This document shows, piece after piece, positions 7,242 to 33,232 of a stretch of DNA of 34,149 nt (positions within the stretch are counted from its first letter, which is position 1; the number at the start of each line of letters is the position of its first letter). Below the pieces are notes generated by a model. The model had not been told where the DNA came from and searched no databases. It was given only the letters and a program-made list of their open reading frames with translations. This DNA is from an uncultured Bacteroidales bacterium (GTDB lineage: Bacteria; Bacteroidota; Bacteroidia; Bacteroidales; Bacteroidaceae), in assembly GCA_902776455.1 (NCBI GenBank), contig CACYQI010000051.1, positions 1 through 34,149 of the forward strand, read 5' to 3'. The position numbers and the translations under genes were made by a program.

Positions 7242-8242
7242 CTGCTGTGCAGCAGTCCGCAGGCGGCGAAGATGTCTTGTCCGCGGCTGGCACGGATAGT
7301 GGTCGTCACGCCGTGGTGCGTCAGATAGTCGCGCAGCCAGACCATCTTCTCCTCCGATGCGCCGTGGTAGGGCGAGTCGGGAATCTCGTGGAAGCGTATC
7401 AGGTTGACGCGACATTCGATGGGCGCAAGCAGTCGGACCAGTTCGCGAGCATGGCGTTCCGAGTCATTGAGGCCGCCGAAGACGATGTACTCGAAGCTGA
7501 GCCGGCGCTGGTGGCTCCAGTCCTGCTTTCGGAGCAACGCCAGCAGGTCGAGCAGTCCGAAAGCCTTCTCAGCCGGCATCATCGCGAGGCGTTCCTCGGG
7601 GAAGGGGTTGTGGAGGCTGACAGCGACGTGGCAGTCGCTCTCCTGAAGGAAGCGTTCAACGCCTTTCCTTACGCCAACGGTCGAGACTGTGATGCGCTTC
7701 GGACTCCAAGCCCACCCGTCGGGAGCCGTGAGCAACTGCGTGGCTCTCAGCACGGCATCGAGGTTGTCCATCGGTTCGCCCTGCCCCATGAAGACGATGT
7801 TGGTGAGCTTTTCGCTCCCGGGCACCGAATAGACTTGGTTCAGGATGTCGGTGGCGGAGAGGTTTCCTCCGAAGCCTTGCCTGCCCGTCATGCAGAAGCG
7901 GCACCCCATGCGGCAGCCTGCCTGACTGCTGACGCAGAGCGTTGCCCTGTCGTCGTCCGGGATATAGACGCACTCCACCTGTTGTCCGCTTTCCGTCGGG
8001 AAGAGGTATTTGGCCGTTCCGTCCGTGCTCTGCTGTACGTCGCTTGGCGGCACGCAACCTATCTCGTAGTGCTTCGCGAGGGCCGACCTGCCTTTCAGCG
8101 AGAGGTTGGTCATCTCTTCGATGCTGCGCACATGCTTCCCGTAGATCCATTCCGCCATTTGCTTTGCAGCAAAACGGGGCAGTCCGACCTCCGTGGCCAC
8201 AGCCTTCAGTTCGTCGAGTGTCATGCCGAGCAGCTTCTTCAC
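7211..8242 (-). CDS. rlmN: 23S rRNA (adenine(2503)-C(2))-methyltransferase RlmN, radical SAM
   Basis: 343 residues. The radical-SAM cluster motif CRMGCRFC gives Cys110, Cys114 and Cys117; Cys328 in DIFAACG matches the second catalytic Cys that takes part in methyl transfer. RlmN methylates A2503 of 23S rRNA and a tRNA adenine. The GTG at 8242 is chosen: it opens VKKLLGMTLDELK as in relatives, whereas the more distant TTG at 8284 lies inside the -7 promoter element. The last residues (TPQPPLGG, 335-342) come from a GC-rich palindromic repeat that also provides the region just before the TAA stop. It is the first gene of the minus-strand operon. Confidence 0.9.
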   Translation of the reverse strand: MKKLLGMTLDELKAVATEVGLPRFAAKQMAEWIYGKHVRSIEEMTNLSLKGRSALAKHYEIGCVPPSDVQQSTDGTAKYLFPTESGQQVECVYIPDDDRATLCVSSQAGCRMGCRFCMTGRQGFGGNLSATDILNQVYSVPGSEKLTNIVFMGQGEPMDNLDAVLRATQLLTAPDGWAWSPKRITVSTVGVRKGVERFLQESDCHVAVSLHNPFPEERLAMMPAEKAFGLLDLLALLRKQDWSHQRRLSFEYIVFGGLNDSERHARELVRLLAPIECRVNLIRFHEIPDSPYHGASEEKMVWLRDYLTHHGVTTTIRASRGQDIFAACGLLHSRTPQPPLGGA

Positions 8243-8281
8243 CTTGTCTCCTTTCTTTGATGAGTCGTCCCTTTTATTCTG

Positions 8282-8289
8282 CAAAGATA
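8282..8289 (-). promoter_or_regulatory. -7 element TATCTTTG of the rlmN operon
   Basis: The minus strand reads TATCTTTGC, matching Bacteroidetes TAnnTTTG. It would start transcription about 30 nt before the GTG of rlmN and probably serves the run of genes down to secG. No clear -33 TTG is visible. Confidence 0.6.
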
Positions 8290-8996
8290 CATTATATTAT
8301 GTAATAAGCGCGCATGAAAGCGGAAAAAGTTCTCTTTTTTCACTTCTTTTAGGCTTTAGGGTAGGAAAAGTTAAATAAGTTCAAGTTCCGAAAGTCGCGT
8401 AGTGGAAGGAACTAAAGTCCATAAGAGCGGATTCAAATCCGCTCGAACCGTTTTCTGTGCTTTCCGTGCTTTCCGTGTGACACACCCCACCCCTTCGCCG
8501 AAGGCGACATTTCTGATTTCTGTGCTTTCCGTGTGAAGTTTATGTGTGTTTTGTCAGAAGTTTTCGCATTGGGATGCGTTCTGGCGGCGTTTTTTTGCTT
8601 CTGTGGCACTTTGGTCCACCGAAGGCGGAAAATGGGCTTAAATCGAATTGGCGTTGATAATCAAGGGGTTAGAAAGGCGAGTTTTGCCGATGAGGGTTAA
8701 GAAAGTATAAGGATGGAATGGCATGCCGACAAACGGAACAAAGAATGAAGGGGAAAATTGAAAGTTGAAAAAGGAAAGTTAACGTGGAGGAAAAAGCTAC
8801 ACTACGTGGAGAATCGGCCGACACTACGTGGAGTGTTGAAAAGGACGGCGTGCAGGGGAGGGGATTTCCCTGTGGAGAGGGAGAAAATAGTGTCGTGAAA
8901 TTTCGGATGCGCAACCTGTGCCTTTGGGCGAGGCAAAAGCAGTCTTGGCAGATTAGAACCTTGTCTCTGCTGCCTGTGTGCCTGCGGCGGACTCAA
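8290..8996. other. Gene-free stretch (707 bp) built from repeats
   Basis: No credible gene. It holds: a tRNA T-arm-like hairpin (AGCGGATTCAAATCCGCT, near 8426-8443); two copies of TTCTGTGCTTTCCGTG (8453-8480 and 8517-8538); a palindromic CCTTCGCCGAAGG; the shared GTGGCACTTT and TTAAATCGAA modules (8603-8664); and a 22-bp-period array (8782-8833). The rest is A/G-rich without recognisable content. Confidence 0.7.
8603..8833. repeat. Composite intergenic element, copy A: TTAAATCGAA module plus 22-bp array
   Basis: GTGGCACTTT (8603-8612) is followed 31 bp later by GGGCTTAAATCGAATTGGC (8634). An array with ACGTGGAG at 8782, 8804 and 8826 (exact 22-bp spacing) comes 148 bp further on. The array reads in the opposite orientation to copies B and C. 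Confidence 0.75.
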
Positions 8997-10427
8997 TCAA
9001 ACACATTTGTGTGCTTTACGCCTCAGCTCGCACCAGTAGATTACGGCACAGTATGCCAAGATGAGGAACGTGCTGAGGACGAGGCTCTGCCACATCGGCC
9101 AGTCCGTCGGGAAGAGCGTCATCGCATAGTAGAGGACGGCTGCGACGACGGTATAGCCAGCCATCGAGCGGATAGGGTAGGGGATGGGATTGAGCCGACA
9201 GCCTACGAAATAACTCAGGAGCATGGCCGTTCCGTAGCCTGCCACACCGCCCCAAGCACAAGCCATGTAGCTGTAATGGGGGATTCCCCAGACGTTGACG
9301 GCCAGAAGAACGACACATCCTGCCAGCGAGAACAGGGCGCCGTAGATGGTTTTGTCAATCAGTTTGTACCAGAAGGACAGGTTGAAGTAGATGCCCATCA
9401 TTATCTCTGCGGCCATGACGATGGGCACAACCTGCAGTCCCTCGCGGTATTCCTCCCCGATGAGGTGTTGCAGTAAGGGCATGTAGCCCACTACGCAGAG
9501 GAACGCAAGCAGGGTGAAGATGACGAAGTACTTCATTCCCAGAGCGTAATACTCGTTCTTGTCGGCATCCTTCGCCTTGGCAAAGACGATAGGCTCGTAG
9601 GCAAATCGGAAGGCTTGGGTTATCATCGCCATAATCATGGCTATCTTTACGCAGCTGCCATACACGCCGAGTTCCACATTGGCCTGTGCCTCATCGGGAT
9701 AGACCTTCGGGAAGAGTATCTTGTCGGCCACTTGATTCAGGATGCCCATCACGCTCAGGAGGAGTATCGGCCACGAGTAGGAGAGCATCCTTCGGAGCAG
9801 CTGTCCGTCGAACTTCCAACGGATCTTGAGCAGGTCGGGCACGAAGAAGAAGGTGATGAAGCCCGTGCAAAGCAGATTGATGAAGAAGACGTAGAACACA
9901 CTCGTTTTGCCCAAGAGGATGAAGAAGATGAGGTTGAGGGCGATGTTGAGGAAGATGAAGCCCATCTTCAGCGACATGAAACGGATGGGGCGGTGTTGGA
10001 ACCGAAGGTAGCAGAAAGGCAGCGCCTGCAGGGCATCAAGGGCAACCACCGTCGCCATCATCAGCAAGTATTCGGGATGCTCTGCGTATCCGAGATAGTT
10101 CGAAATGGGGCCGATGAAGCTGAAAAGCAGCAGAAGAAAGAGGGCGGCGAGGCTCCCCACCATCGCCAAGCCGGTGGTGAAGACCGTATCGGGCTGTTCC
10201 CGCTCGTCGTTGGCGTAGCGGAAGAGCGTCGTCTCCATGCCGAAAGTCAGTATGGCGAAGAAAAGAGCCGTGTAGGCATACATGTTCGTGCTCACGCCGT
10301 AGTCGCCCGAAGCCTTGGGCATGTAGTGGGTGTAGAGCGGCACAAGCAGGTAGTTGAGGAACCTGCCCACGATGCTCGACAACCCGTATATAGCGGTGTC
10401 CTTGAAGAGACCTTTGAGGTTTGCCAT
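8997..10427 (-). CDS. Polysaccharide/lipid-linked precursor flippase, Wzx/MurJ-like (MOP superfamily)
   Basis: 476 residues with about 12-14 hydrophobic helices over the whole length and the family N-terminus (LKGLFKDTAIYGLSSIVGRFLNYLLVPLYTHYM). Proteins of this type move lipid-linked sugars (O-antigen, capsule or peptidoglycan precursors) across the inner membrane. No glycosyltransferase or wzy gene is next to it, so it is not part of a visible polysaccharide locus, which fits a housekeeping flippase; the substrate cannot be read from sequence. It is divergent from the GH3 gene, with its own -7 element 26 bp before the ATG. Confidence 0.82.
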   Translation of the reverse strand: MANLKGLFKDTAIYGLSSIVGRFLNYLLVPLYTHYMPKASGDYGVSTNMYAYTALFFAILTFGMETTLFRYANDEREQPDTVFTTGLAMVGSLAALFLLLLFSFIGPISNYLGYAEHPEYLLMMATVVALDALQALPFCYLRFQHRPIRFMSLKMGFIFLNIALNLIFFILLGKTSVFYVFFINLLCTGFITFFFVPDLLKIRWKFDGQLLRRMLSYSWPILLLSVMGILNQVADKILFPKVYPDEAQANVELGVYGSCVKIAMIMAMITQAFRFAYEPIVFAKAKDADKNEYYALGMKYFVIFTLLAFLCVVGYMPLLQHLIGEEYREGLQVVPIVMAAEIMMGIYFNLSFWYKLIDKTIYGALFSLAGCVVLLAVNVWGIPHYSYMACAWGGVAGYGTAMLLSYFVGCRLNPIPYPIRSMAGYTVVAAVLYYAMTLFPTDWPMWQSLVLSTFLILAYCAVIYWCELRRKAHKCV

Positions 10428-12878: not shown

Positions 12879-12993
12879 GGCATGGAGCAAGGGGCAAGGA
12901 GCAAGAGAATACATCCTTCCCTGTCATTCCTCCTGCCCCTTGCCCCTTGCCCCTTGCCCCCTAACTTCTAACCCTTAACCTCTAACCCCTAAC
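12879..12993. repeat. GH3-xth spacer made of short tandem repeats
   Basis: It consists of a copy of the AGCAAGGGGCAAGGAGCAAG block (12888-12907; copy 1 lies near 2225-2256), a CCCCTTG heptamer array (12935-12960), and a CTAACCC-type 7-8-mer array (12961-12993) that runs right up to the xth start codon. The first two blocks are complementary and could form a hairpin after the GH3 gene. No separate xth promoter is seen. Confidence 0.65.
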
Positions 12994-15270: not shown

Positions 15271-16179
15271 ATGGAAAAGAGAACAAGATGCGCCATCTTC
15301 GGCAATACCTACCAGCCCAAAAAGAGCGAGGCTGCGCAGCGGCTCTTCGACGCGCTGGCTGCACAAGGCATTGAGCCGCTCGTTGACAGCCCTTTCTATG
15401 CTTATCTCAAGGAGGAGATGCACGTTTGCATCCCTGACTGCCAGCTCATTACGGACGATGCTTTCGAGGCCGACTTTGCTATCAGCATGGGCGGCGACGG
15501 CACGTTTCTGACGACAGCCATGAGGGTAGGGGAGAAGCAGATACCGATTCTTGGCATCAATACGGGACGCTTGGGCTTCCTGGCCGACTTTGCGCTCGAC
15601 GACATCACAGGCACGCTTGGCGACTTTGCCGACGGACGGCTGCGGACGGAACGCTGCAATGTGCTTCAGGTGGAATGCTCGGAGGGACTACAGGGCTATC
15701 CCTTTGCCCTCAACGAAGTAGCGGTGCTCAAGCGCGACGACAGCAGCATGATAAGCATCCGCGTTGACCTTGGAGGCCAATATCTTACGACCTATCAGGC
15801 CGACGGACTCATCGTCAACTCGCCGACGGGCAGCACCGGCTATGCGCTTAGCGTAGGAGGTCCGGTCATGCTGCCTGGCAGTCAAATCGTTGGCCTTGTG
15901 CCTGTGGCTCCTCACGGCCTTACAGTCCGCCCGTTGACGTTGCCCGACGACATCGAGGTGACGCTGACAGTAGAGAGCCGCAACCACAACTTCCTCGTTG
16001 CCATCGACGGACGCAGCGAGCCTTGCCAAGATACAGCCCGGCTCACTATCCGCAAGGCTCCCTATCAGGTCGTCGTGCTGAAACGTGCTGAGACAACGTT
16101 CCTCCGCACCCTCCGCAGCAAGTTGCTCTGGGGAAGCGATGCAAGAACCAGCCTATCGCCGAAAGGAAATGAAGAATGA
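15271..16179 (+). CDS. nadK: NAD kinase
   Basis: 302 residues. It phosphorylates NAD+ to NADP+ in the cytoplasm. Motifs: GGDGTFL at 74-80 (the GGDG diacylglycerol-kinase-like signature), GINTGRLGFLAD near 98-109, NEVAVLKRD near 152 and NSPTGSTGYALSVGGP near 185-200. The ATG at 15271 is preferred: it follows AGGAGAG (15261-15267), one of the few Shine-Dalgarno-like sites here, and lies after the promoter. The C-terminal tail and the TGA stop run into an AATGAAG heptamer array. Confidence 0.93.
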   Translation: MEKRTRCAIFGNTYQPKKSEAAQRLFDALAAQGIEPLVDSPFYAYLKEEMHVCIPDCQLITDDAFEADFAISMGGDGTFLTTAMRVGEKQIPILGINTGRLGFLADFALDDITGTLGDFADGRLRTERCNVLQVECSEGLQGYPFALNEVAVLKRDDSSMISIRVDLGGQYLTTYQADGLIVNSPTGSTGYALSVGGPVMLPGSQIVGLVPVAPHGLTVRPLTLPDDIEVTLTVESRNHNFLVAIDGRSEPCQDTARLTIRKAPYQVVVLKRAETTFLRTLRSKLLWGSDARTSLSPKGNEE

Positions 16180-16422
16180 GGGAAATGAAGAATGAAGAGT
16201 GAAGAATGAAGAGTGAAGAATGAAGAATGAAGAATTTGCTACCGCGCTGAGAAAAGTTAAAAGGTTAAAAGGCTCCGTCCTGTAAATGGTTAAATTGCTA
16301 TATTGTACATCAATTGTACATTGTACATTGTTAAATTGTACATCAAATCTACATTGTTAAATTGTACATTATCAAAATCGTAAATAAATAGTAAATCGTA
16401 AATCGTCAAATCGTAAATCAAC
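16166..16422. repeat. nadK-ABC gene spacer of three short-repeat arrays
   Basis: AATGAAG/AGTGAAG heptamers (16166-16237) supply the nadK stop codon. AATTGTACAT units with a TGTACA palindrome follow (16300-16372), then CGTAAAT heptamers (16378-16418) up to the ABC gene ATG. No -7 element is visible. Confidence 0.65.
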
Positions 16423-18491: not shown

Positions 18492-18537
18492 ACTCCAAAT
18501 TTTGACAGACCCTCCAGAATCGCTTGAAATGCCTTCG

Positions 18538-18831
18538 GTGGCACTTTTTAACCCTAAAACAAAAACATGGGCTTAAATCGAAAGGAGTTTTGCAACTACT
18601 TAGCTCCTAGTAGGTTATTGTTCGCCGTCCCCTCCTTGTTGTTCTTCGTAAAATGCCGAATTGCTATGTACATATAGCAATATGGACGTCTTTGGCCCGT
18701 TTTTGCACACTTTTTGACGTGTGAAGTCCGTCAACTTCACGTGGAGAAAATCCAAACACTCCACGTTAAGTTGGCCAACACTCCACGTAGTGTTTCCCGA
18801 TGCTCCACGCTCTTCGAGCCGATACCCCGTG
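18538..18831. repeat. Composite intergenic element, copy B
   Basis: GTGGCACTTT (18538) lies exactly 31 bp before GGGCTTAAATCGAA (18569), as in copy A. The array has CTCCACG-type units at 18759, 18781, 18803 and 18825 (22-bp spacing), with a further related unit at 18735. Confidence 0.75.
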
Positions 18832-19021
18832 TTTTGCCCCCTTTTTCGCCACTTTGAGTGAGTGTGCAATAATAGCATTGTGAAAGTGAAAGGGCTGAAT
18901 GGCTGACAATGTGTTACTGCCAGTTTCGGCTCGCGCGAAGCAAAAAACAACCGAACAGAGCGTGGAAAAACGCCCTTTTCGAAGAGAATTTGCCCCTCAT
19001 TGTTAATTTTCTTCAAAAATG

Positions 19022-24778: not shown

Positions 24779-24969
24779 TACAGTATTGTTTTTGTTAGTT
24801 AATACATAATTTCGGGTGTAAAATTACTATTTTTTTCGCTAACGGCAAGGGGACAGAAATATGTTAGACAGCATATTTTTCTTATATTTTTGTTCTGTTA
24901 ACGTATTTGGGCGCTAATGATGGGTGATTTTGGCCAAAGAAAGCCGCTTTTGTCCATAAGAGATTGGTT

Positions 24970-25090
24970 CACGCGGCATCGGGCAGCGGCTTATGCGCCA
25001 CGGGGCAGCGTTTTACGCTCCACGGGGCAGCGTTTTACGCTCCACGTTGCATCGGCCCACGCTCCACGTTGCATCGACCCACGCTCCAGC
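24970..25090. repeat. 22-bp-period array, copy C
   Basis: CACG-type unit starts at 24999, 25021, 25043, 25065 and 25087, exactly 22 bp apart, with a related unit at 24970. Two units are identical (CACGGGGCAGCG then TTTTACGCTC). No TTAAATCGAA module is seen here. Confidence 0.8.
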
Positions 25091-25142
25091 AAGCGTGAAA
25101 TAACGTGGTACGAGGTATCGTCAATTATCGTTTTTCGGGGAA

Positions 25143-25240
25143 AAAGCACCGAAGGTGCGAAAGAACACAGCCGGGGGCGCAAGCCCCGGGACAATGGCAT
25201 AAACAAAACTAAGCCCTAAAGGGGGCGACAGAACACATAA
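25143..25240 (+). repeat. REP-like arm, forward
   Basis: It shares the three hairpin motifs of the 18120 arm: CACCGAAGGTGCGA, GGGGGCGCAAGCCCC, and AAGCCCTAAAGGGGGC. Confidence 0.75.
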
Positions 25241-25246
25241 CTTATT

Positions 25247-25775
25247 AATTGCCATGTAACTGCCCATTAATTTCCATAAATTTTATGATAATTCGTGAGC
25301 AATTTATGGTAATTCGCTTTTTATCTTTAACATATAATTGCCATATAATTGCCCATTAATTTCCATAAAATTATATTTATGATAATTCGTGGGTCATTTA
25401 TGGCAATTCGTGTTTATATCTTTAACATATAATTGCCATGTAATTGCCCATTAATTTCCATAAAATTATTTTTGTGATAATTCGTGGGTCATTAATGGTA
25501 ATTCTTCGGCAGTCGCCTCAGGCGCAGGCGGAGCGTGTTTCTATCTTTAACATATAATTGCCATGTAATTGCCCATTAATTTCCATAAAAATATATTTAT
25601 GATAATTCGTGGGTCATTAATGGTAATTCGTGTTTCTATCTTTAACATATAATTGCCATGTAATTGCCCATTAATCTCCATAAATTATATTCATGATAAT
25701 TCGTGGTTCATTTATGGTAATTTGTGTTTTATCTTTAACATATAATTGCCATATAATTGCCCATTAATTATATTT
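25247..25775. repeat. AT-rich tandem repeat, about five units of 89-95 bp plus a partial
   Basis: AATTGCCAT begins at 25247, 25336, 25431, 25556, 25651 and 25744 (spacings 89, 95, 125, 95, 93). The 125-bp interval holds a 30-bp GC-rich insertion (about 25506-25535). Each unit is itself imperfectly palindromic: AATTGCC...CCAT against ATGG...AATT. Confidence 0.85.
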
Positions 25776-30220: not shown

Positions 30221-30496
30221 ATCCTCCCCTAAAGGGAACCGATAGGTCGACGGCCAAAGGGAAAGTCAAGGACTTCTCCCTCTCCCACGGGAGAGGGTGA
30301 ACAAATGGTAAATTGGAGACCCCCTAACCCCCTTTAGGGGGAATAAATGGTAAATGGTAAATGATTAAATGGGAGACCCCCTAACCCCCTTTAGGGGGAA
30401 TAAATGGTAAATGGTAAATGATTAAATGGGAGACCCCCTAACCCTCTTTAGGGGGAATAAATGGTAAATGGTAAATGATTAAATAGTAAATGCGAG
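30221..30496. repeat. 57-bp tandem repeat combining GC-rich palindrome and GGTAAAT heptamers
   Basis: GGAGAC starts at 30315, 30372 and 30429, exactly 57 bp apart. Each unit has CCCCCTTTAGGGGG (third copy one mismatch) followed by GGTAAAT twice and GATTAAAT. Two further GC-rich palindromes lie at 30226-30240 and 30276-30300. The array ends beside the DUF721 start. Confidence 0.85.
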
Positions 30497-30787
30497 ATGA
30501 TAAACGACAAGTCTTCCATAATGCGCGATGTCTTGCTGGCTTTCTTGCGCGAAGAAGGCCTCGAGACCCCTCTGTTGCAATACCGCATCGTGCAGTCTTG
30601 GCCCGAAGTCATGGGCGAGACCATCAGCCGCTACACCCGACAAGTCTTCGTGCGCGACGGCAAGTTGCAAGTGCAGCTCACCAGTCCCTCCCTTCGCCAA
30701 AACCTCTTGATGGAGCACAAACGCATCGCACAGAAGCTCAACGAACACGTCGGCTCCTTTGTCATCAGCGACGTCTGCTTCTTCTGA
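30497..30787 (+). CDS. DUF721 (DciA-like) protein
   Basis: 96 residues of the DUF721 family (VLLAFLREEGLETPLLQYRIV; QSWPEVMGETISRYTRQVFV; LRQNLLMEHKRIAQKLNEHVG). The family includes DciA, a loader of the replicative helicase in bacteria without DnaC; this short form consists of the core domain only. Its place next to recF supports a role in DNA metabolism. The ATG at 30497 is used; an out-of-frame ATG lies 7 bp before it. Confidence 0.8.
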   Translation: MINDKSSIMRDVLLAFLREEGLETPLLQYRIVQSWPEVMGETISRYTRQVFVRDGKLQVQLTSPSLRQNLLMEHKRIAQKLNEHVGSFVISDVCFF

Positions 30788-31397
30788 AACGGCATAAATG
30801 TCAAAATAATTCTCAATCGCACCCCCTCCAACGGCCTCTTTCCCCTCCAGCCGTACTTTTCTACTCCCGAGGGAAGAAAGGGCCTTAAATCGAATCGGCA
30901 TTGATTATCAATGTCTTACAACGCCTCGTTTTTCGACACTATGTTAAGAAGGTGTTCCTTCTATTCACATGAGGGATAAAATCCGCATAGATTTCCTTCA
31001 AAAACAGCCTGAAATTTCACCCAACACTCCATGGGGTTTCAGCCGACACTCCGTGGAGAGTTGGCCGACTCTCCACGGAGTGTTGTCCAACACCCCGTGC
31101 CGTGTCCTTCTGAATGCCGTGGAGTGACTGTTTTTGCTGTAAAGGATTTTCGCGAACATAGCCAGTGAAGCATACACTATCGGACCCCCGACTTTTGCCC
31201 CCAAACAGCAAAACTAACGTCTTTCCTCTCTTTTTTCTACTTTTGTTATGCATCGCATTTGCCCGCAGCGTCCAAGTCTGGTCGTTTCTGTCCCTTCGAG
31301 TTGCTTTTTATGCTGGGTTTTGTTGCTCCCGAGGCTTGATTAGCTGAAATAAGAATAAAAAAGTAAGCAAGCACTATGTTTTGTGAACTTTTTTTTG
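30788..31397. other. Gene-free stretch (about 610 bp) with composite element D
   Basis: No credible gene. It holds the TTAAATCGAA module and a 22-bp array; the remaining sequence on both sides shows nothing I can name. Confidence 0.65.
30880..31121. repeat. Composite intergenic element, copy D
   Basis: GCCTTAAATCGAATCGGC (from 30882) with TTGATTATCAA. The array follows about 150 bp later, with unit starts CATG/CGTG/CACG at 31030, 31052, 31074, 31096 and 31118, exactly 22 bp apart. Confidence 0.8.
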
Positions 31398-31405
31398 TAC
31401 CTTTG
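31398..31405 (+). promoter_or_regulatory. -7 element TACCTTTG of lepA
   Basis: TACCTTTGC lies 27 bp before the lepA ATG and matches TAnnTTTG. Confidence 0.55.
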
Positions 31406-31432
31406 CAAAGCAATTTATAGACTTTTGAATTC

Positions 31433-33232
31433 ATGCAAAACATTCGCAACTTCTGCATCATCGCCCACATTGACCACGGAAAGAGTACACTCGCCGACCG
31501 ACTGCTGGAATATACGAAGACTATCACCGTCACCAAAGGGCAGATGCTCGACGATATGGACCTGGAACAGGAACGTGGCATCACCATCAAAAGCCACGCG
31601 ATACAGATGCAGTGGACCCCCCAACCCCCTTTAGGGGGAGAGCGGAAGACGTATGTCCTCAATCTAATCGACACTCCGGGACATGTGGATTTCAGCTACG
31701 AGGTGAGCCGAAGCATCGCGGCCTGCGAGGGCGCGCTGCTCGTGGTGGACGCTACGCAGGGCGTACAGGCTCAGACCATCAGCAACCTCTACATGGCCAT
31801 TGACCACGACTTGGAAATCATTCCCGTCATCAATAAGTGCGACATGCCCAACGCGATGCCCGAAGAGGTGGAGGACGAGATTGTCGATCTGCTTGGCTGC
31901 AAACGCGAGGAAATCATACGCGCCAGCGGCAAGACAGGCATGGGCGTGGAGGAGATTCTCAGGGCTGTGGTGGAACGCATCCCGTGTCCCAAAGGCGACG
32001 AGAAGGCTCCCCTACAGGCGCTCATCTTCGACTCGGTGTTCAACTCCTTCCGTGGCATCATCGCCTACTTCAAGATAGTGAACGGCACGATGCGGAGCGG
32101 CGACTTGGTGCAGTTCATCAACACCGGCAAGGAGTATAAGGCGGACGAAATCGGTGTGCTGAAGATGGATATGGTGCCAAGACAGGTGCTGCATTGTGGC
32201 GACGTGGGCTACATCGTTTCGGGCATCAAGACGGCCACTGAGGTGAAGGTGGGCGACACGATAACGAGTGTGGAGAACCCTTGCCGCGAGGCTATTGCGG
32301 GCTTCGAGGAGGTGAAGCCGATGGTCTTTGCGGGTGTCTATCCCATCGAGACGGAGGACTTCGAGAACCTCCGTGCCTCGCTGGAGAAGCTACAGCTCAA
32401 CGATGCCAGCCTCACCTTCCAGCCCGAGAGTTCCGCGGCGCTCGGCTTCGGCTTCCGTTGCGGCTTCCTCGGTCTGCTACACATGGAAATCATTCAGGAG
32501 AGGCTCGACAGGGAGTTTGACATGGACGTCATCACGACGGTCCCCAACGTCTCGTACCTCGTCTATGACAAGCAGGGCAACGTGCAGGAGGTGCACAACC
32601 CCAGCGGCATGCCCGACCAGACGCTCATCGACCACATCGAGGAACCCTACATACACGCCTCCATCATCACGACGGCCAACTTCATCGGCCCTATCATGAC
32701 GCTCTGTCTGGGCAAAAGAGGCGAGCTGCTGAAGCAGGAGTACATCAGCGGCAACCGCGTGGAGCTGCAGTACGCCATGCCGCTGGGAGAGATTGTCATC
32801 GACTTCTACGACAAGCTGAAGAGCATCTCGAAGGGCTATGCGTCGTTCGACTATCATCAGGACGGCTACCGACCCAGCAAGCTCGTGAAGATGGACATCC
32901 TGCTGAACGGAGAACCTGTGGACGCGCTCTCTACGCTGACACATTTCGACAACGCTGAGACCTTCGGGCGCCGCATGTGCGAGAAGCTGAAGGAACTCCT
33001 GCCGCGACAGCAGTTCGACATCGCCATACAGGCTGCCATCGGAGCCAAGATAATAGCCCGCGAGACGGTGAAGCAGGTGCGCAAGGATGTGCTGGCAAAG
33101 TGCTACGGCGGTGACGTGAGCCGCAAACGCAAGCTCCTCGAGAAGCAGAAACGAGGCAAGAAGCGCATGAAGCAGATAGGCAATGTGCAGGTGCCGCAGA
33201 AAGCCTTCCTCGCTGTGCTGAAACTGGATTAG
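31433..33232 (+). CDS. lepA: Elongation factor 4 (LepA), with a repeat-encoded insertion in the G domain
   Basis: 599 residues. GTPase motifs: AHIDHGKST near 10-18, ERGIT near 46, DTPGHVDF near 78-85 and NKCD near 133. EF4-specific parts follow to [23 protein letters not shown] at the end. LepA is a ribosomal GTPase acting in translation initiation or stalled-ribosome rescue. Residues 61-70 ([10 protein letters not shown]) lie where relatives have a short turn, as I recall about YTYKGE, between SHAIQM and the strand before DTPGH. This stretch is encoded by a copy of the GC-rich palindromic repeat; the frame stays open and all catalytic motifs are intact. Confidence 0.95.
31615..31641 (+). repeat. 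GC-rich palindromic element inside lepA
   Basis: It has the CCCCCTTTAGGGGG core in the same orientation and reading frame as the copy at the end of rlmN; both read TPQPPLGG. It is the same element as at 30321-30341 and 7216-7241. Confidence 0.85.

Follow-up and report, generated by a model that had tools for sequence, protein, structure and literature searches.

Dispersed intergenic arrays with a kept 22-bp period and changing unit sequences in a Bacteroidales genome and its relatives

Short tandem arrays in the gaps between the genes of an uncultured Bacteroidales bacterium raise the question of what is kept in a repeat whose units differ in many bases. The window, that is, the whole stretch of 34,149 nucleotides that was analysed, lies in contig 51 of a 94-contig, 3.39-Mb genome and holds four such arrays. 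A preliminary description read them as units spaced exactly 22 bp apart around an 18-bp palindromic core, and suggested that either a series of hairpins or a protein bound every two helical turns was under selection. Sequence is the usual basis for classing the intergenic repeats of bacteria. Much of the present class is recognisable by its period alone, and sequence searches would therefore miss it. Identifying what fixes the 22 bp would reveal either a protein of nucleoid or centromere type or an enzyme that copies repeats, and because the arrays occur in the cultured species Paraprevotella clara the question is testable now.

Four arrays in one window

The link motif of the window arrays is CTCCACG, a variant of it, or its complement, recurring 22 bp apart, with a single inverted link at 18740 (Table 1). 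The exact spacing first described was recovered at all four loci, save for the first interval of the array at 18735-18831, where the CTCC anchors are spaced 19, 22, and 22 bp and the first link is inverted. As an independent check, TRF calls a period of 22 at every array but the one at 18735-18831. None of the arrays lies in a gene, as had been stated from the outset, genes here being called with a simple codon-usage caller built for this analysis. The interval 30880-31121, at first treated as one feature, mixes a conserved left block with an array, and that array contains an inverted repeat whose 16 pairs are all perfect and whose loop is 6 bases long.

Table 1. Coordinates of the 22-bp arrays, of the conserved blocks to their left, and of other tandem repeats in the window.
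Feature	Position	Strand	Basis
22-bp array, 3 link motifs CGTGGAG at 8783, 8805, 8827	8782..8833	-	TRF period 22 (8782-8833), lag-22 self-similar segment 8782-8833, anchors
22-bp array, link 18740 (-) inverted, then 18759, 18781, 18803 (+)	18735..18831	+	Anchors, lag-22 segment 18755-18809
22-bp array, ~5.5 units, type B (no type A element)	24966..25088	+	TRF period 22 (24981-25046 and 25037-25088), lag-22 segment 24966-25088, score 61.4
22-bp array between 97-codon ORF (30497-30787) and lepA (31433-33232)	31015..31105	+	Lag-22 segment 31015-31105, gene calls; TRF period 22 (31015-31056 and 31042-31099)
Type A left block for 8782 array	8580..8710	+	nhmmer E 3.6e-33; element ~8550-8910, approximate borders
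Type A left block for 18735 array	18516..18630	+	nhmmer E 1.5e-22
Type A left block for 31015 array	30827..30957	+	nhmmer E 8.4e-31; element ~30797-31158, approximate borders
Separate-class tandem repeats	30309-30484, 25238-25769, 16168-16419, 12934-12993 and others		

Arrays of the own genome have two settings. In type A, which includes the window arrays at 8782, 18735, and 31030, the array sits in a dispersed element of ~350-400 bp, the conserved left block of which gave 20 nhmmer matches in 408.7 kb; a detected array lies near 14 of these. Type B arrays have other flanks, as at 24966-25088. At the ends of the three window elements, whose borders are approximate, the best inverted 14-mer matches at 9-10 of 14 positions. 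The arrays lack a CRISPR layout, whole 22-bp units being repeated without unique spacers, and a phage or plasmid origin was rejected (24960-25120 is unmatched in phages and 30790-31180 in plasmids). At gathering scores Rfam has no match over any window array; its sole match within the window is an Acido-Lenti-1 RNA (RF01687) at 25145-25190 on the minus strand, just past the array at 24966-25088, with 42.8 bits (gathering score 37). The window also carries a separate class of repeats, heptamer-based tandem repeats with periods of 7, 14, 21, and 28 together with 57-bp and 95-bp arrays.

A period of 22 bp and its unit families in related genomes

The period was followed through several samples. 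The own-genome sample (G000) comprises two contigs and the window, 408.7 kb of the 3.39 Mb. The lepA-relative sample consists of the 80 best LepA-matching loci (736 kb; LepA 88-97% identical); the titled nearest matches among these 80 are MAGs from rumen, omasum, and other animals, mostly filed under Bacteroidaceae, Prevotellaceae, or Bacteroidales, and they include Paraprevotella, with P. clara YIT 11840. A genus sample covers 36 further genomes at up to 20 kb each (634 kb in total), and an other-family sample 24 genomes of the same order (313 kb). From P. clara 400 kb were taken in 20 stretches, 16 of them nearly contiguous on one contig and 4 picked for listed units. Self-similarity was scored at each lag with no model of the unit and with short-period repeats removed, a variant of this statistic being used for the genus and other-family sets. 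Most of these genomes are incomplete metagenome assemblies, and repeats break contigs, so that copy numbers are lower bounds.

In the own sample 33 non-simple segments stand at lag 22, against 0 in a Markov control; lag 44, the doubled period, has 26, and no other lag from 10 to 45 exceeds 6. The 80 lepA loci gave 25 segments at lag 22, 14 at lag 44, and at most 4 at any other lag. Lag 22 accounts for 26 segments of the genus sample, found in 17 of the 36 genomes, other lags having, for example, 8 (lag 18), 6 (lag 15), 4 (lag 21), and 0 (lag 23) segments, and for 11 in P. clara (8 of them from the 16 almost contiguous stretches), where any other lag has at most 3. With short-period repeats removed, the peak is at 22 in all three sets of relatives. 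The peak thins beyond this group, since the genomes of other families yielded only 2 segments at lag 22; they also gave 2 at lag 23, both in one genome. With short periods removed, lag 23 has 0 segments in the own and genus samples and 1 in the lepA relatives. Once simple repeats are set aside, lag 21 alone among the neighbouring lengths of 20-24 occurs more than twice, with 4 segments in each of two counts, some perhaps in coding sequence, and it is a length that a two-turn rule would allow. Array density is ~27-95 per Mb in samples of this group and ~95 per Mb in the own genome, and in some bacteria of the gut and rumen such arrays may make up a considerable part of the intergenic DNA. One genome of another family, G054 (L186), has 23-bp arrays (CTCACAAGTTTGTCAGTTTTCAC) at 8231-8298 and 9647-9751, so that other parts of the order may keep a neighbouring period.

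The lock on length is also visible in the spacing of links. Among link spacings of 14-30 bp in samples of five genomes, counted on both strands so that one unit or pair may count twice, 364 of 383 are exactly 22: 125/128 in the own genome, 58/58, 81/82, and 46/47 in three others, and 54/68 in P. clara. Adjacent units differ on average at 11-21% of their bases (79-89% identical), and with the spacing fixed at 22 substitutions are evidently tolerated while length changes are rare. Conservation of the period across species with very different units supports spacing as the property that is kept. Decayed units extend this phase past the visible arrays: lag-22 self-match in the flanks, with z measured against the spread of other lags, is raised in G029 (0.336 vs 0.260, z 5.6), the lepA relatives (z 4.4), G020 (z 3.3), the genus set (z 2.8), G000 (z 2.4), and P. 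clara (z 2.2), and has z 0.4 in G022. Dyads in the flanks are mostly out of phase, G029 alone reaching z 3.2 at phase 11.

Each genome favours families of its own, of which GAGTCCATGTGCGTGGACTCAA (G029), GTTTCTGCAGCAGAAACTTTTA (G022), TTGCTTGTACATGTAAAAGCAA (G020), CTCCACGGAGCATCGGCTTACG (own), and GAAAAATCGTTTGGCTGAGATT (P. clara) are example units. Searches for the first four families in 18 genus genomes allowed up to 3 mismatches, and controls gave 0 or 1 match per genome and strand. Matches in the home genome and in the remaining 17 together number 63 and 0 for the G029 family, 194 and 1 for the G022 family, and 378 and 1 for the own family (home genome G000). The G020 family (TTGCTTGTACATGTAAAAGCAA, TACATGTA) has 280 + 282 strand matches in G020, a palindromic unit possibly counting on both strands; it is low-copy in six of the other 17 (G000 13, G005 8, G027 5, G036 5, G024 2, G012 1) and absent in 11. 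The P. clara unit pattern gave 135 matches and 0 controls. Dispersal is genome-wide: CTCCACG-N15-CTCCACG, at up to 1 mismatch, occurs 419 + 353 = 772 times in the own genome and the reversed pattern 1 + 1 = 2 times, while in 60 relatives the highest counts are those of G025 (18) and G036 (14), most being near their controls. From the dispersal of such near-identical families it follows that they have been copied around the genome.

The families are nonetheless partly related. Consensus units of 105 arrays from 44 sources (own genome, lepA relatives, genus, and P. clara) were compared in all rotations and on both strands, and single-link clusters were formed at 16 or more of 22 matches, a level above the 99.9% point of shuffled units. 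At this level 67 of 4668 between-source and 256 of 792 within-source pairs are alike, and the arrays fall into 38 clusters, 30 arrays being singletons. Some sources are possibly the same or very near species, L054/G020 and L066/G035 having the same units. In the largest cluster, to which the own CTCCACG family belongs, 43 arrays of 16 different sources are chained together, which rules out a complete lack of relatedness between the units of different species and makes part of the unit diversity a matter of divergence in one old family.

Placement, palindromes and folding

Intergenic placement is general. None of 109 arrays (own 39, lepA relatives 32, genus 27, P. clara 11) lies more than half in genes, the sequence being 80-87% coding in the own, lepA-relative, and genus sets; a 13% overlap with a gene was seen for one genus array. 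Of 59 arrays in co-directional gaps, 43 sit closer to the 3′ end of the upstream gene (sign test p 0.0006), a bias driven by the relatives and P. clara (P. clara 8/8, lepA relatives 14/17, genus 8/10 with p 0.11), the own genome having no such preference (13/24). Convergent and divergent gaps with arrays stand at 22:18, against 63:111 for background gaps of at least 200 bp (p 0.03). A lag-22 segment lies within 600 bp upstream of lepA at 13 of the 80 loci, which may reflect merely the density of arrays in gaps; a single conserved array location there is ruled out, the upstream gene differing among species. Ten loci have a glycosyltransferase-lepA gap in common, and six of these hold arrays (one weak), of at least 3 dissimilar families as judged by eye. 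The borders of the stacks were read in two genus genomes. In G020, 13 of 16 stretches chosen at exact unit matches contain three units with inward-facing TTGCTTGTACATG on both sides, and in 15 stretches of G029 arrays of two to five units mostly have inverted TTCATCATCCGGACATTTCTTT-like units outside.

Units are often palindromic. Consensus arms with 7-8 matched positions out of 8 are present in 13/27 genus and 3/32 lepA-relative arrays, compared with 2.4% of random 22-mers. The dyad test is significant in 41% of the own (39) and 47% of the lepA-relative (32) arrays, so that palindromicity is ruled out as a universal feature; at other lags the test is significant in 22% and 26%, respectively. 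The 18-bp palindromic core of the preliminary description is best regarded as an idealised consensus, only 2 of 182 unit dyads of the own genome having fully matched 6-bp inner arms. Fully matched arms number 2/82 in G020, 0/113 in G029, and 0/64 in P. clara; both strands were scanned in all four genomes, so that a unit may count twice.

Covariation of the palindrome halves, proposed earlier as a check, was sought with anchors fixed outside the tested arms and is absent at the unit dyad. In four of five genomes the arms of the unit dyad match less than re-dealt arms (own 2.48 vs 2.75 of 6, G020 5.66 vs 6.00 of 7, G029 1.71 vs 2.70 of 4, P. clara 3.05 vs 3.90 of 7), and in G022 they vary independently. 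When distinct units only are counted the effect weakens in the own genome (1944/2000 permutations at or above native) and holds in G020, G029, and P. clara. For the link dyad of the own genome the result is mixed, the match being below re-dealt when all 76 occurrences are counted (1996/2000) and slightly above when the 31 distinct ones are (620/2000). Arms that match less than re-dealt ones indicate that many units are composed of two different half types. Perfect palindromes are unstable in bacteria, and the mismatch could be caused by avoidance of perfect palindromes or by recognition of two different halves. The preliminary description was to be given up if compensatory change and conservation of the period were both lacking; compensation alone is lacking.

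Swapping whole array halves led to the same result. Native halves pair no better in G020, G029, G022, and P. clara. In the own genome they seemed to do so over all arrays (17/2000 permutations as low), the 14 class A arrays pairing worse than permuted ones (1997/2000 as low or lower) and the 32 class B arrays seemingly better (4/2000). When swaps stayed within a single oriented family, which kept 19 of the class B arrays and dropped 13, 829/2000 permutations were as good as native, and the class B signal therefore came from mixing families.

Predicted folding against shuffles gave z of -3 or lower in 22/27 genus, 13/32 lepA-relative, 24/46 own, and 1/7 P. clara arrays and in 11/60 controls, with medians of -4.8 in the genus set and -0.5 in the control; 10 of the 32 lepA-relative arrays have z above -1. 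Within the window z is -5.5 at 18730-18835 and -6.0 at 31010-31125, and -0.6 and -1.1 for the other two arrays. Two P. clara arrays contain perfect inverted repeats, of 22 bp with a loop of 4 (L263, 6500-6720) and of 28 bp with a loop of 10 (L265, 10100-10300). As single cases both stems favour hairpins. The L265 array has AATCACA/TGTGATT on both sides where other P. clara units have AATCTCA/TGAGATT.

What may keep the spacing

A protein that reads DNA would best explain the lock on spacing, in which neighbouring units differ at 11-21% of bases with few length changes. The reading preferred here, held tentatively and with somewhat less than even confidence, is that of a non-autonomous repeat of the BOX, BIME, or BrickBuilt kind in which a protein would constrain the spacing of double-stranded sites while their sequence turns over. 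The dispersed intergenic repeats would be short stacks of 22-bp units, bounded by inverted ends of the sort read in G020 and G029, and many units would be two half-sites of ~11 bp set face to face. Evolution would keep the 22 bp, ~two helical turns, so that one half-site after another falls on the same helical face, and would replace the half-site sequences, leaving each species with amplified families of its own. With two turns of double-stranded DNA read per unit, the protein would bind side by side on the units and so impose their spacing. It might be the copying enzyme itself or a host nucleoid or gene-end protein, and either it or a linked nicking or copying enzyme would presumably also spread the repeats. 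Such an arrangement has plasmid models: R6K 22-bp iterons and the 11-bp repeats of ParR/parC are helically phased at one or two turns, with protein bound side by side. Those iteron and centromere arrays are single plasmid loci beside the gene for their protein, whereas here many chromosomal intergenic sites are involved and the binding protein is only inferred. Of the two structures first suggested, a protein bound every two helical turns is preferred, and a hairpin series loses ground through the absence of compensation.

Several observations weigh against the preferred reading. No spacing protein was found, and one that reads sequence would have to change specificity fast, or else read shape. 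Flank dyads are mostly out of phase, arrays in several sets fold better than controls, the G020 family is shared at low copy with six genomes, and spacing is looser in P. clara. Recombination within arrays would likewise keep unit length, and common descent can explain the shared period in the 16 of 44 sources that one cluster joins. Common descent with slow length change is the main rival: the arrays would be neutral satellites, an old tandem family whose length is kept by unequal exchange or slippage and whose species families are drawn from a shared library, the period being inherited and unselected. This explanation, rather unlikely on present evidence, is strengthened by the 16-source similarity cluster, which links the main own family with 15 other sources; the TACATGTA family, abundant in G020 and rare in G000, G005, G012, G024, G027, and G036, is distributed as a library model expects, and adjacent units are 79-89% identical on average. 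A comparable minisatellite is BrickBuilt of P. gingivalis (PMC4596501). Neutral satellites account less well for many substitutions beside very few length changes in four of five genomes, for flanks too diverged to show as repeats that keep the 22-bp phase in most sets (G022 excepted), and for the 37 further clusters, unlinked to the main one, that have the same period.

Hairpins of RNA or single-stranded DNA, formed in transcribed 3′ ends or at replication forks and acting in termination, mRNA stability, or transposition, are improbable as the general explanation. They would suit the matching consensus arms and low fold z of the genus set, the two well-folding arrays of the window, the overall nearness to 3′ ends, and the long stems of P. 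clara. Compensatory change, which hairpins should leave, is absent from the unit dyads, half swaps within one own family leave pairing unweakened, nearly a third of the lepA-relative arrays fold no better than z -1, the own genome has no 3′ preference, and over the window arrays there is neither an Rfam match nor, in 30600-31440, a terminator-like site. Still less probable is copying as REP/BIME repeats by a RAYT (Y1 transposase). The arrays do resemble such repeats in being intergenic, often palindromic, species-biased, provided with inverted ends, and present in hundreds of copies, and a Y1-like gene of the own genome (L210, G000:C22, 1495-1977) is followed by a 22-bp array at 2248-2342, ~270 bp downstream of its stop; at ~95 arrays per Mb this adjacency may be chance. 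Y1_Tnp (E ≤ 0.001) was detected in 6 of 17 carriers (4/12 + 2/5), the genomes being mostly incomplete, and in none of the other 11, G020, G029, and P. clara among them. REPs are reported to keep their palindromic features by complementary mutations and to have inter-REP segments of variable length (PMC2817692), unlike these arrays, and a RAYT is not the general answer.

A bolder form of the preferred reading takes the arrays for a genome-wide set of docking sites in one lineage of Bacteroidales, the 22-bp geometry and not the sequence being the inherited signal while a fast-diverging DNA-binding or copying protein co-evolves with its sites into codes proper to each species. Such a system, itself rather doubtful, would be the bacterial parallel to satellites and centromeres that evolve fast.

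Among known repeats, BrickBuilt is the closest in host group and architecture and fails on unit length and terminal repeats. This minisatellite-MITE of P. gingivalis has a 23-nt unit in 19 copies and IS5-type terminal repeats, and BLAST matches are reported in P. gingivalis only, with homologues in P. gulae (Klein 2015; PMC4596501). Both systems belong to Bacteroidales and are foldable, with tandem units of near-equal length in dispersed intergenic elements that have their own flanking blocks; the BrickBuilt trait of an intergenic minisatellite within a dispersed element is found here in the placement of all arrays mainly outside genes and in the repeated type A block. The present arrays differ from BrickBuilt in their period of 22 rather than 23, in hundreds of copies in some genomes, in diverse units, and in many host species. 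The IS5-like terminal repeat GAGACCTTTGCA has 3 window matches at up to 2 mismatches, against 3.2 expected, none of them at an array. BIME-2, REP, and REPIN sequences are likewise clustered intergenic imperfect palindromes of alternating orientation and species-specific sequence, and the palindromic features of REPs are reported to be preserved by complementary mutations (PMC2817692, PMC3733652, PMC3116915); the present arrays differ from them in having a fixed 22-bp period, no covariation, and no consistent RAYT. Pneumococcal BOX is similarly modular and dispersed, with end modules around variable tandem internal modules, but its modules are streptococcal and, as described, have no 22-bp pitch common to different units (PMC3049150). 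No description of a 22-bp period shared by diverse units was found in the full-text literature searched, most subscription journals being outside its scope, in agreement with the initial statement that no named family has this form.

The stretch at 8633-8654 (TGGGCTTAAATCGAATTGGCGT) matches the right terminal repeat of P. gingivalis MITE239, as given in Table 2 of Klein 2015 (PMC4596501), at 19 of 22 positions, a level reached by 0 of 100 shuffles. Of the 11 places at which TAAATCGAA occurs in the 408.7-kb sample, 9 are no more than 1.5 kb from an array.
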